NCBI RefSeq assembly: GCF_034044635.1
Contig: NZ_JAXCLX010000001.1
Span: forward strand, 1,302,001 to 1,366,000
Direction of reading: 5' to 3'
DNA length: 64,000 nucleotides
Source: Dongia rigui
GTDB lineage: Bacteria > Pseudomonadota > Alphaproteobacteria > Dongiales > Dongiaceae
In this document: in pieces, positions 55,745 to 58,674 of the stretch
Numbering within the stretch: the stretch's first letter is position 1
How the letters are laid out: each line of letters starts with the position of its first letter
The notes under the pieces: generated by a model
Database searches by the model: none
Told to the model about the DNA's origin: nothing
What the model saw: the letters and a program-made list of their open reading frames with translations, nothing else
Position numbers and translations under genes: made by a program

Positions 55745-55801
55745 GTCAGTCTCCGTGCGTCTAGGGTCGAGAAGCAGACGGACGGAGGCCTGAAAGAAAA
55801 A

Positions 55802-55824
55802 GCCCCGTCCGGAACCGGCGGGGC
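55802..55824 (-). terminator. Intrinsic terminator in the leader of the short ThrRS gene
   Basis: Leftward, GCCCCG (55824-55819) pairs with CGGGGC (55807-55802), with an inner CCGG/CCGG stem, followed by five T (55801-55797). It lies about 55 bases before the gene start. Part of its upstream arm (CCGCCGG, 55821-55815) can instead pair with CCGGCGG at 55884-55878 in the leader, an antiterminator. Confidence 0.75.
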
Positions 55825-55853
55825 CTTGGGTAGCAGTCAGATCGTGCGTTACA

Positions 55854-55925
55854 TCAGCACAAGCCAACACCCCTCGGCCGCCGGTCGGCGGTCCAGGTAG
55901 TGGTTACTTGTTGATGTTTGCGCAT
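55854..55925 (-). CDS. Threonine-rich leader peptide (attenuation)
   Basis: A 23-codon frame, MRKHQQVTTTWTADRRPRGV then GLC and TGA. Codons 8-12 are ACC ACT ACC TGG ACC, four of five threonine. It ends about 30 bases before the terminator stem. An ATG at 55934 is in frame and would add three residues. No strong ribosome site is seen (weak GAGCCAG), as in many leaders. Leader-peptide stalling at threonine codons when threonyl-tRNA is scarce would favour the antiterminator. Confidence 0.6.
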   Translation of the reverse strand: MRKHQQVTTTWTADRRPRGVGLC

Positions 55926-56047
55926 CTGGCTCATAGCGCGGGAGACTAAGGGCGCAGGCAGCAGCGTGTCAAGCTGCCGCAGGGCGAATGCATGCCGACC
56001 CTGAATTCCTGCCCATCCTTCTCGCCCCAGCGCGCCCCCCGCCGCTC

Positions 56048-57967
56048 TCAGGGAAGGCGCTCCCGCGGCAGCAGCAAGCGCACAGTCGTTCCCTGACCAA
56101 CCTCGCTCTCAAGGGAGATGCTGCCGCCCATGCCCCTGGCAAGCGATTTACAGATGGCAAGGCCGAGACCAGTCCCTCCCTGGTCGCGGGTATGCGCCGA
56201 TCCCAATTGGACGAAGGGTTGCCCCAGTTCGGCGATTTTCTCGGCTGGGATACCGCGGCCATTGTCCGAGACGCACAGCGCCACCATGCCGTCGTCAGCG
56301 GATTCGGCCTGCAGCAGCACGCGGCCCCCGGCATTGGTGAACTTGATGGCATTGCCGATGATGTTGGTCAGAATCTGGTGCGTGGCACGCCGGTCAGCGT
56401 GGATCGAAGGCAAGGGCGCGCTGTCCGGATCGACCAGTTCAACCGATTTCTCGATGGCGAGTGACTTCAGGAGGCTGCCCGCTTCGTGCAGTAGCAGTGT
56501 GGGATCCAGTGGCTGCAATTCATACTCGAACCTGCCGGCTTCGATGCGCGACAGATCGAGGATGTCGTTGATCAAAGACAAGAGATGCGTGCCGCTGGTA
56601 TTGATGTCGGCGACATATTCGCTGTAGGTCGGGTTGTTGATCGGTCCGAACGTTTCGCTCCGCATCAGGGCGGAAAAGCCGATGATCGCGTTGAGGGGCG
56701 TCCTCAGTTCGTGACTCATCGTCGCCAGGAACTTCGATTTGGCGAGATTTGCCGTTTCCGCCTTGAGCAGTTCCAGCGCCCTTTCGTTCGTCAGCCGCAC
56801 CTGCTCGCGTTCGGCATCGCTGATATCCGTCATATCGCGAAAGATGACCGTCATGGTGGTGACCCCTTCGACGGTCACCTTCGACAGACCAGCCATCAGC
56901 GGGACCAGTGATCCGTCCTTTCGCAACCCGTTCACCTCACGCCAGTTGCGCATCGCCATGTGGGTGGACTGGCCTTCTGCAAAGGCAGCAACATGCCGGC
57001 TGTGGACGCTCCTCTGCGAGACCGGGATCAGGCAGTCGATCGGCTGACCGAGTACTTCATCGGCGCGATAGCCGAATATCACTTCCGCTTCCGCATTGAA
57101 GGCGATGATGCGAAAGCGATGGTCGACGGTGAGAATTCCCACCATCGCCGTGTCCAGGATGGCGGAAAGGCGGGCCTCGCTCGCCCGCAATTTGTCCTCC
57201 GCCACACGGCGCTGTGTGATCGATTGATGCGAGATCACCGCGCCGGCCAGCGAGCCGCGCAGCCTGTGAACCGACATCAGGAACCAACGCTGCTCCGTGG
57301 CCGAGTGACAGGGGTATTCCAGGGAATAGGCGGGCGACTTTCCCTCCAGAACCATGCGGATATTGGCATTGATGGCAGCGCCGCTCGAACCTTCCTCGTC
57401 CGAGGAAGCAGCTTCGCAGCTCTTGAAATAATTGAGGCCGACGCCGGCGATGTCTTGGCTGGATCCGCCATTCTCGCGCGCAAACTGCCGCCAACCCTCG
57501 TTGACGGCGACGATCCACCCAGCACCGTCGATGACAGCGACACTGCCGGGGAGAGAATCGAGCACGGATCTACTCAATGATTCGCTGGCCTCGACCGCAT
57601 GCTGCAGCATTTCCCGCTGGGCGCTTTCGTGCAGCAGGACGATCGTGTTCCTGCTGTGGTCTTCGATACCTTCAACGCGCTGTATGGATAAGTCGGCGTC
57701 GAAGGTCGTGCCATCCTTGCGCAACAGCCGGCGGCCGATGGCGTGCGGAAGATGATCGGCAGCGGGTTCGTGGATGCGGCGTCCGATCTCGCCGCGGTCT
57801 TCCGGGTGGATCATCATGTCCCAGGGCCGACCGATCACCTCCGACGGTGACCAGCCCAGCATTTCCGAGATGATGGCATTGATGGCAACAATCAACCCTT
57901 CGGGCGAGACCTTGACGATGCCAACTTGTGGCTTGCCGGCAGCGACGGTGTTGCCCTCCATTTGCAT
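56048..57967 (-). CDS. Cytoplasmic PAS-domain sensor histidine kinase
   Basis: About 639 residues from the ATG at 57967 (GGGAGAG at the right distance); the frame continues to a GTG at 58072 and an ATG at 58048. Three PAS domains (starting near VGIVKVSPEGLIVAIN, SVAVIDGAGWIVAVNEGW and MVGILTVDHRFRIIAFNA), HisKA with SHELRTPLNAI, ATPase domain with DNGRGIPAEK and GTGLGLAICKSLARGMGG. No membrane helix, so the signal is cytoplasmic. No cognate regulator is adjacent. The FGPI-motif type of HisKA is typical of alphaproteobacteria. Confidence 0.9.
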   Translation of the reverse strand: MQMEGNTVAAGKPQVGIVKVSPEGLIVAINAIISEMLGWSPSEVIGRPWDMMIHPEDRGEIGRRIHEPAADHLPHAIGRRLLRKDGTTFDADLSIQRVEGIEDHSRNTIVLLHESAQREMLQHAVEASESLSRSVLDSLPGSVAVIDGAGWIVAVNEGWRQFARENGGSSQDIAGVGLNYFKSCEAASSDEEGSSGAAINANIRMVLEGKSPAYSLEYPCHSATEQRWFLMSVHRLRGSLAGAVISHQSITQRRVAEDKLRASEARLSAILDTAMVGILTVDHRFRIIAFNAEAEVIFGYRADEVLGQPIDCLIPVSQRSVHSRHVAAFAEGQSTHMAMRNWREVNGLRKDGSLVPLMAGLSKVTVEGVTTMTVIFRDMTDISDAEREQVRLTNERALELLKAETANLAKSKFLATMSHELRTPLNAIIGFSALMRSETFGPINNPTYSEYVADINTSGTHLLSLINDILDLSRIEAGRFEYELQPLDPTLLLHEAGSLLKSLAIEKSVELVDPDSAPLPSIHADRRATHQILTNIIGNAIKFTNAGGRVLLQAESADDGMVALCVSDNGRGIPAEKIAELGQPFVQLGSAHTRDQGGTGLGLAICKSLARGMGGSISLESEVGQGTTVRLLLPRERLP

Positions 57968-58197
57968 CGACCGCAGCTCTCCCTCGGCGCTCCGCACTGA
58001 CCCAGCTTTAACGACCGTGCCAAGGAGCTCACTGCTGCAGACGACCATCCACTTTCCAGAGCGATAAAGCACGCGAAAAGTGCCGAGGCAGAAAGAAACG
58101 CCAATAGAGTCCTATCGAGACATTGCCAATAACCTTCAGTCCTAACGCGTACGACACTTCAGCATGCGGCGCATGGGCCCCGATGCAGAGCGGCCGA

Positions 58198-58674
58198 TCA
58201 GGCCGCCACACCCCGATAGGCTTTCTCAAGCGTCGCGAGATCGATCTTGATCATGCCCCAGACCGCCTGCAGCACGCGGTTGCGCTTCTCTTCATCCGGA
58301 TCGCTGATCATCGCGTCGAGGACTGCTGGATGGACCTGCCAGGAGAGGCCCCATTTGTCCTGCACCCAGCCGCAGGCCTGCTCCTTGCCGCCGTTTTCGA
58401 GGATCGCGTTCCAGATGCGGTCCAGCTCCTTCTGGTCGTCGCATTTGACCCAGAGCGAAACGGCGGGGCTGAGCTTGTAGGTCGGACCGGCATTGAGGGC
58501 GCGGTATTCCTGACCCGAAAGCGTGAAGACGACACCGTAGAGATTCTTGGCGCGATCGAAATACGTCACGGACTCGATCTTCGAATTGGGCAGCAGCGAG
58601 GTATAGAATTTCGCCGCTGCCTCGGCATCGTCGTCGAACCAGAGATGCGTCACGACTTTCTGCGTGGTGGCCAT
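58198..58674 (-). CDS. VOC-fold protein, PhnB/3-demethylubiquinone-methyltransferase-like
   Basis: 158 residues. Start KVVTHLWFDDDAEAAAKFYT and the middle DKWGLSWQVHP, then RVLQAVWGMIKIDLATLEKA, are those of the PhnB-like branch of glyoxalase/bleomycin-resistance (VOC) proteins. Despite the database name it has no methyltransferase domain. Function unknown, perhaps a small-molecule binding protein. Third gene of a TetR-SRPBCC-VOC transcript; this trio is common in proteobacteria. A repeat pair separates it from the SRPBCC gene. Confidence 0.85.
   Translation of the reverse strand: MATTQKVVTHLWFDDDAEAAAKFYTSLLPNSKIESVTYFDRAKNLYGVVFTLSGQEYRALNAGPTYKLSPAVSLWVKCDDQKELDRIWNAILENGGKEQACGWVQDKWGLSWQVHPAVLDAMISDPDEEKRNRVLQAVWGMIKIDLATLEKAYRGVAA

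Follow-up and report, generated by a model that had tools for sequence, protein, structure and literature searches.

Does the DNA just upstream of a short threonyl-tRNA synthetase gene in Dongia rigui tie the expression of that gene to the charging of tRNA-Thr? The question is raised by a 64,000-nucleotide stretch of contig NZ_JAXCLX010000001.1, the whole of which we call the window, in which a leader on the minus strand precedes thrS2, a paralogue of the threonyl-tRNA synthetase (ThrRS) gene. The original prediction, made from the letters of the window, was that a leader frame containing ACC ACT ACC TGG ACC is followed by four pairable segments in the layout of a classical amino-acid attenuator. 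We found the codons in frame in the minus-strand reading, and the positions of segments 1 to 3, of the terminator 3' arm and of the five T all match that prediction (Table 1). Absent from it were the TTGACA promoter box, the greater length of the 1:2 stem and an element 3' of the terminator.

Table 1. Features of the thrS2 leader and its surroundings in the window (segments numbered in the order of transcription)
Feature	Positions	Strand	Basis or remark
Leader of thrS2	55934-55794	minus	RNA and peptide-coding stretch 5' of thrS2
-35 box TTGACA, leader promoter	55972-55967	minus	sequence, and matching box in relatives
-10-like TTAGTC	55949-55944	minus	17 nt from the -35 box; poor consensus match
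Leader peptide ORF MSQMRKHQQVTTTWTADRRPRGVGLC	55934-55854	minus	stop at 55856-55854; 26 codons from the ATG at 55934, 23 from a second ATG at 55925
Segment 1, core CCGCC	55891-55887	minus	predicted stem reaches 5' across the Thr codons
Segment 2, CCGGCGG	55884-55878	minus	core GGCGG (55882-55878) kept in 38/38 leaders
Segment 3, GGCCCCGCCGG, terminator 5' arm	55825-55815	minus	contains CCGCCGG (55821-55815); alternative partner is segment 2
Segment 4, CGGACGGGGC, terminator 3' arm	55811-55802	minus	sequence and covariation
Five-T run 3' of the terminator stem	55801-55797	minus	sequence
Segment 5, GGCCTCCGTCCG	55790-55779	minus	can pair with segment 4 or with the Shine-Dalgarno region of thrS2
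Segment 6, ACGGAG, thrS2 Shine-Dalgarno sequence	55756-55751	minus	sequence
thrS2	55744-54527	minus	405-aa threonyl-tRNA synthetase paralogue

Set against 200 dinucleotide shuffles, the window leader has the better fold in 199 cases (z -2.98). Trained on 15 leaders from other genera, a covariance model picks exactly the leader in Table 1 from the 64-kb window, with 67.9 bits and E 1.7e-16; the next-best matches reach 16.2 bits (the same terminator on the opposite strand) and 13.1 bits.

Upstream of the leader, a co-directional frame at 56048-58072, kinase-like by eye, ends at 56048. In two loci of the same genus, L084 and L085, a relative of another window frame (58198-58674) ends immediately upstream of the promoter box of the leader; the window has the kinase-like frame between the leader and 58198-58674, as if inserted.

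The enzyme encoded by thrS2

The short threonyl-tRNA synthetase expected behind the leader is indeed there. The 405-aa product of thrS2 consists only of the class II core and the anticodon-binding domain (Pfam), and NCBIfam TIGR00418 recognizes it as a threonine--tRNA ligase with 460.9 bits, against a curated cut-off of 383.65. Because its alignment with the 642-residue chain 1qf6 runs from residue 243 onward, ThrS2 lacks the N-terminal part (TGS and editing), and the domain search found none of the N-terminal TGS and editing domains of a full-length housekeeping ThrRS. The source genome also encodes a full-length relative, 53% identical to ThrS2, in a 694-codon frame; a third protein matches only weakly (28%, E 8.8e-14) and is probably some other class II synthetase.

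The tree unites all 38 ThrS2 proteins in a single clade (support 1.0), separate from 40 housekeeping ThrRS, and the housekeeping ThrRS of the source genome groups with alphaproteobacterial ThrRS. A profile made from 20 ThrS2 gives the ThrS2 proteins at least 665 bits and the 40 housekeeping proteins at most 615. The zinc ligands C96, H147 and H273, which we presume to correspond to those of E. coli ThrRS by its numbering, and the motif-2 arginine are invariant in all 20 ThrS2 that were aligned (of 38), so that ThrS2 is, judging by its residues, probably an active enzyme. There was no sign that it is an inhibitor-resistant ThrRS: the equivalent of G463 is the usual residue in 20 of 20 proteins, and that of L489, which we take to be the borrelidin-related residue of E. 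coli ThrRS, in 19 of 20, although this is weak negative evidence. The abstract of PMC11252418 names E. coli G463 in connection with inhibitor potency.

Distribution of thrS2 and its leader

Protein searches located ThrS2 in three of the seven genomes of the same genus, where the other strong matches are long frames, and in three of the 17 genomes of the same family. Further afield they located it in ten of 385 genomes drawn from the class (E 1e-150), in nine of 18 from the family of genome G308, in six of 398 from the phylum (with a Burkholderia query) and in 17 of 249 from the family of genome G703. The last family we read as Burkholderiaceae because its ThrS2 are up to 93% identical to the Burkholderia arboris protein. 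All of these tallies are lower bounds, since a threshold of E 1e-150 misses some genomes; G181 and G305 were reached through the RNA model only. Two further ThrS2 came from plasmid records of Burkholderia arboris and Caballeronia sp. SBC2. Three of the 40 plasmid matches listed were examined (H1, H2 and H6), and the Gluconobacter match, H6, was dropped as a ThrS2 because it sits in a 625-codon frame. Without repeats, the set holds 36 loci found by protein (10 + 6 + 2 + 18) and two found by the RNA model (L140 and L141), 38 in all.

The leader is present at each of the 36 loci found by protein, and with it the Thr codons and the alternative stems, on whose conservation in relatives the original prediction had staked itself. 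Each of the first 18 loci combines a Thr-rich leader ORF with the terminator GCCCCGCCGG...GGGGC, and the next 18, which lay outside model building, all match the leader model, at 72-103 bits. Three of the leaders owe their recovery to the RNA model, the pattern search having missed L165 altogether and the terminators of L172 and L173. Across the set the leaders share a Thr-rich peptide, a GGCGG segment 2 and a terminator of the form GGCCCCGCCGG...CGGGGC.

Housekeeping genes served as the contrast. The leader model matched none of 40 housekeeping thrS loci, the best score being 9.1 bits; because the L086 locus comes without upstream DNA, we count 39 controls. The 40 loci comprise 16 of 16 from the same family and 24 of at least 80 genome-contig matches at 51-57% identity, and those 24 proved to be full-length throughout, with no ThrS2 among them. 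At E 0.01 the RNA model found matches in 112 of the 385 genomes, the weaker ones often consisting of the terminator part alone. We examined 30 of the matched loci, 10 of which were repeats of known ThrS2 loci. From the sequences, the pair of gene and leader appears to recur in distantly related bacteria, namely alphaproteobacteria and Burkholderiaceae.

Leader peptide and promoter

Threonine takes up 237 of the 616 codons upstream of segment 2 in the 38 leaders, with three to nine Thr codons per leader. All four codons are in use (ACC 154, ACG 64, ACT 15 and ACA 4), so the Thr run is not one repeated DNA word. The window leader is a short ORF with clustered Thr codons, and its cluster, with four of them, is among the shorter ones. 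Within the same genus, the leader peptide of L084 is identical to that of the window, and in L085 the core MRKHQ(Q/R)VTTTWTA is retained between flanks that differ, its codons changed at third positions (GTA/GTT and ACT/ACG).

Five leaders (L119, L125, L126, L128 and L129) begin MQSIILTV(A/V)TIKVT..., with Thr mixed with Ile and Val, and may sense more than Thr. Among the species of this group the leader DNA is little altered. At L168 (near 1323-1461), an extra G in the G run after the Thr codons shifts the leader frame; the shifted frame continues past the terminator into the start of thrS2.

In 37 of the 38 loci a promoter box (TTGAC in 36, TTTAC in one) begins 35-39 nt before the leader ATG. 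The remaining locus is L176, where the model start falls inside a longer ORF; the start used there is not the ATG, and no such box was found within the 60 nt searched. A sigma-70 scan at the window leader returned no promoters. From the spacing of the box, and from its position in relatives, the transcript would start at the leader AUG or a few nucleotides from it, and the message for the leader peptide is probably leaderless or nearly so. A leaderless leader peptide has been documented for trpL of Sinorhizobium meliloti (PMC7298713, PMC10117765).

Pairing alternatives and predicted switching

Over the 38 leaders, segment 3 and the core of the terminator hardly vary. This is expected of segments that have two partners each, and invariance alone is not covariation. 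Covariation was found in the lower terminator stem, where one pair is GC in 23 leaders, AU in 11 and GU in four, and in 1:2 (CG versus GC). In alignment A4, which was fitted to the model structure and is hence biased toward it, double changes occupy 30 cells of 1:2 and 3:4; shuffles give 12.1 +/- 2.3, and none of 500 reached that number. Significance does not extend to every measure, however, because two of five are not clearly beyond shuffles: the six pairs with a double change were equalled by 47 of 500 shuffles and the 12 further pair types by 385 of 500. Slid structures scored lower on most of the covariation measures.

The original prediction had 1:2 and 3:4 forming together, or 2:3 alone, and both the covariation and the folding probabilities agree with it. 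When the window leader is folded as free RNA up to segment 3, P(1:2) is 0.95 and P(2:3) is 0.00; at full length P(3:4) is 0.90. The two arrangements are thus mutually exclusive in silico, and the 3:4 stem with its five T has the form of an intrinsic terminator. With a ribosome modelled at the first Thr codon, using a mask of the A site plus 12 nt (an assumption), P(2:3) rises to 0.93, so that in the model a Thr stall would free segment 2, as had been proposed. These properties of sequence and fold are those of a classical amino-acid attenuator.

Averaged over the 38 leaders, P(1:2) and P(2:3) are 0.57 and 0.28 in free RNA and 0.03 and 0.92 in stalled RNA. The rise in P(2:3) on stalling exceeds 0.2 in 27 leaders. 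Ten of the other 11 favour 2:3 already when free, and L140 shows no switch at its first Thr codon (0.05). Free-RNA P(2:3) is above 0.5 in 11 of the 38 leaders, among them L170 at 0.51. At full length, 3:4 forms poorly in L127, L128 and L129 (0.19, 0.00 and 0.44). The T run after the stem has at least five T in 15 of 38 loci, and in 16 of 38 no run is longer than three.

Stalls were also modelled at each codon in turn for 15 of the 22 representatives, those with a free P(2:3) below 0.5. Thr accounts for 77 of the 147 codons at which a stall switches the fold and for two of the 53 at which it does not (Fisher 1.9e-11, although the codons are not independent). The window leader itself is less selective in the model: a stall at nearly any codon from the third on flips its predicted fold, so its Thr specificity, which is weak in this respect, must rest on the clustering of the Thr codons or on the actual stall site. 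Such behaviour would suit a leader that senses slow translation generally, whether caused by inhibitors or by shortage of many amino acids, with the Thr codons as its most sensitive place; the leaderless trpL peptide of Sinorhizobium acts in the antibiotic response, by another route (PMC7298713). We nevertheless regard general sensing as unlikely. All 38 leaders have three or more Thr codons ahead of segment 2 while other residues vary, and in several lineages (L115, L120, L165, L172, L174 and L175) the stretch in which a stall switches the fold is largely that of the Thr codons.

Proposed mechanism and simpler explanations

The reading that we hold to be very probable, from sequence and modelling, is that the leader is a ribosome-mediated attenuator which ties the expression of the editing-less ThrS2 to the charging of tRNA-Thr. 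It rests on the presence of the leader at 38 of 38 ThrS2 loci and at none of 39 housekeeping thrS loci, on the covariation and on the predicted folds. We infer the transcript start, the stalling, the termination, the response to Thr-tRNA and a backup role of ThrS2 in the following way. Transcription would begin at or next to the leader AUG. With Thr-tRNA plentiful, the ribosome would pass through the leader, 1:2 would form behind it, 3 would pair with 4, and transcription would stop before thrS2. With Thr-tRNA scarce, the ribosome would stall on the Thr codons, in or just 5' of segment 1, leaving segment 2 free to pair with segment 3; no terminator would then form, thrS2 would be transcribed, and the charging of tRNA-Thr would be restored.

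A chance ORF before a terminator is ruled out by the conserved Thr codons, the covariation, the contrast with housekeeping genes and the match to a model free of the window's own genus. No T-box leader was detected by Rfam, either in the window at gathering scores or in 12 loci at E up to 5, and no other Rfam leader family reached its gathering score in the window. That the hairpin is the ordinary terminator of the upstream gene, with a short ORF there by chance, is hardly tenable even though a co-directional frame ends upstream of it: the leader occurs at 38 of 38 ThrS2 loci, which refutes this reading, its Thr codons are conserved and its stems covary, and in L084 and L085 the leader, the promoter box and thrS2 stay together despite a different gene just upstream.

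An element between the terminator and thrS2

In many loci a CTCCGT-like segment 5 lies between the terminator and thrS2, and with it the attenuator might take on a second function, one switch governing both the transcription and the translation of the gene. This version is conceivable, if on the whole doubtful. When 3:4 has formed on a transcript that was read through, segment 5 would close the thrS2 Shine-Dalgarno sequence (5:6); when 2:3 has formed, the free segment 4 would capture segment 5, and the Shine-Dalgarno sequence would open.

For 4:5, pairing better than in dinucleotide shuffles (p<0.05) was seen at 19 of the 38 loci and at 12 of the 22 representatives (pooled 3e-12), and for 5:6 at 15 of the 38 and seven of the 22 (pooled 2.6e-7). 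These pooled p-values are too small, given that the loci share ancestry and that the analyst picked the representatives. Matched 5:6 arms pair at -12.5 kcal/mol in the 22 representatives and swapped arms at -10.5 +/- 0.45 (0 of 5,000 permutations); for all 38 loci the values are -12.75 and -10.88 +/- 0.34 kcal/mol (again 0 of 5,000). The mean predicted openness of the Shine-Dalgarno sequence goes from 0.12 when 3:4 has formed to 0.24 when segment 4 is free (shuffles: 0.27 and 0.31), and a second lock would fit the 16 loci whose terminators have no T run longer than three. Individual loci are less uniform, however. The predicted opening exceeds 0.1 in 13 of the 38, goes the opposite way in three and hardly alters in 22, and L120, L140, L141 and L165 keep 4:5 but not 5:6. 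Behind the attenuators of other genes the 5:6 pairing is weak, with p 0.016 over 16 of 18 loci (L157 and L159 were left out, their spacers being too short) and 0.056 without two near copies; a smaller test gave p 0.023 for 11 loci that were picked after looking, with L157 dropped.

There is thus good evidence, from modelling, for a Shine-Dalgarno hairpin before thrS2. For its opening by the 4:5 rearrangement the modelling is suggestive, most clearly in the window's own genus and in the Burkholderia group of L121. The fuller proposition, that a two-lock attenuator silences stray read-through and that a Shine-Dalgarno hairpin stands also behind the attenuators of asd and other genes, is a shade more doubtful again. 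A working second lock would add a step to textbook attenuation, and the same hairpin behind asd and the other genes, if true, would point to a wider design of leader-peptide attenuators.

Relation to known systems

The leader of the E. coli thr operon, thrL, combines Thr codons in a leader peptide with alternative stems and a terminator. That attenuator (Rfam RF00506) governs a biosynthetic operon, whereas the window leader precedes a synthetase gene. The window has no RF00506 match at the gathering score, and a relaxed scan of 12 loci returned only L122, a weak match at 28 bits where the cut-off is 55.

The original prediction also held that a Thr leader peptide before a ThrRS gene was an undescribed form of control. 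As stated this does not stand, and only a trimmed form of it survives, because a leader with two Thr codons before thrS, named thrL-thrS, has been predicted in Streptomyces lividans TK24 (PMC8079986). The two cases are alike in having a leaderless, Thr-containing leader peptide before a ThrRS gene. They differ in that the S. lividans leader has two Thr codons and no clear terminator, is reported from one genome and encodes a peptide that is unrelated by eye; the portion of that account at hand mentions neither a functional test nor a short paralogue (PMC8079986).

Other synthetase genes stand behind leader peptides that contain codons for their own amino acid, among them pheST of gamma-proteobacteria and trpS and leuS of Streptomyces (PMC1262725) and hisS of bacilli (PMC2965389). 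As far as these accounts go, they concern other amino acids and no editing-less second enzyme, the nearest case being the hisS paralogues of bacilli. Leader peptides of synthetase genes are already known, and hence so is the kind of control proposed here.

The T-box offers another route to the same kind of target, in which the RNA binds tRNA directly and without a leader peptide. In B. subtilis, thrZ has a backup role. It is a second ThrRS gene, controlled by the charging of tRNA-Thr, as thrS2 would be, and placed under multiple T-boxes (PMC2494555). Anabaena thrS2 is likewise a conditional second ThrRS gene, but it is under the zinc repressor Zur (PMC4787780). If the attenuator works as proposed, what the T-box does for a second ThrRS in Bacillus would here be done by a ribosome and a leader peptide, two inventions to one end.

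In S. meliloti, trpL is an alphaproteobacterial attenuator whose leader AUG begins the transcript; it differs from the thrS2 leader in having Trp codons and in targeting trpE(G) (PMC7298713, PMC10117765). The SAM-II riboswitch of S. meliloti metA resembles the two-lock version in combining a terminator with Shine-Dalgarno sequestration in one leader, but it senses SAM and, in the part of the account available, has no leader peptide with regulatory codons (PMC9373788).

In the portions of the open-access literature that our searches covered, we found no description of the thrS2 leader or of a short ThrRS paralogue controlled by a leader peptide in proteobacteria. Attenuators of proteobacteria are reportedly the subject of Vitreschak et al. 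(2004). What is new, as far as these searches show, is the ThrS2 clade with its own attenuator in alphaproteobacteria and Burkholderiaceae, together with the hairpin behind the terminator. Here a separate clade of ThrRS that lack editing is coupled with an apparent dedicated sensor of Thr-tRNA charging. This suggests a testable role for a gene annotated as threonine--tRNA ligase, that of an emergency enzyme which may trade proofreading for supply.

Related leaders before other genes

The ThrS2 leader model also matches attenuators before asd-like genes, whose leader peptides contain Thr, Lys and often Met codons; examples are MIRIATTTMTTKKATRFGG and MSKRTQTTTTMTKKTT. Such leaders, lying near 1501 in these loci, make up ten of 20 RNA-model loci (L142, L143, L145, L147, L148, L150, L152, L155, L157 and L158). 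The gene was identified as asd by NCBIfam in L142, L143 and L158 and by the motif VGATGAVG alone in the others. Codons for Thr, Lys and Met befit asd, since aspartate-semialdehyde dehydrogenase lies on the route to all three amino acids. In Sinorhizobium, a short ORF has been described before a gene called aspartate dehydrogenase (PMC10117765); it contains six codons for Thr and three for Lys and is probably the same thing.

Several further elements were seen beside these. At L180 (G012:C60:92425-92568) a 72-bit match to the leader model precedes a homoserine/threonine efflux-like gene, and its leader, MKPMPVILSATNQQATALSGG, is not Thr-rich. A weak match of 23.7 bits at L183 (G003:C1:755478-755613) lies before a gene of the DapA/NanA kind; there a TTGACA box precedes the short ORF by about 35 nt. 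L156 (leader at 1501) has an aromatic-rich leader-like ORF, MSEFRFSGMWFSYWSTG, before a gene that the family search did not identify. The leader-like ORFs of L146, L149, L151, L153 and L154 have M(T/S)R near segment 1 and similar stems, with no run of a single amino acid. At L159 and L181, leader-like elements stand before ABC-transporter ATP-binding proteins, recognized by family search in L159 and by eye in L181.
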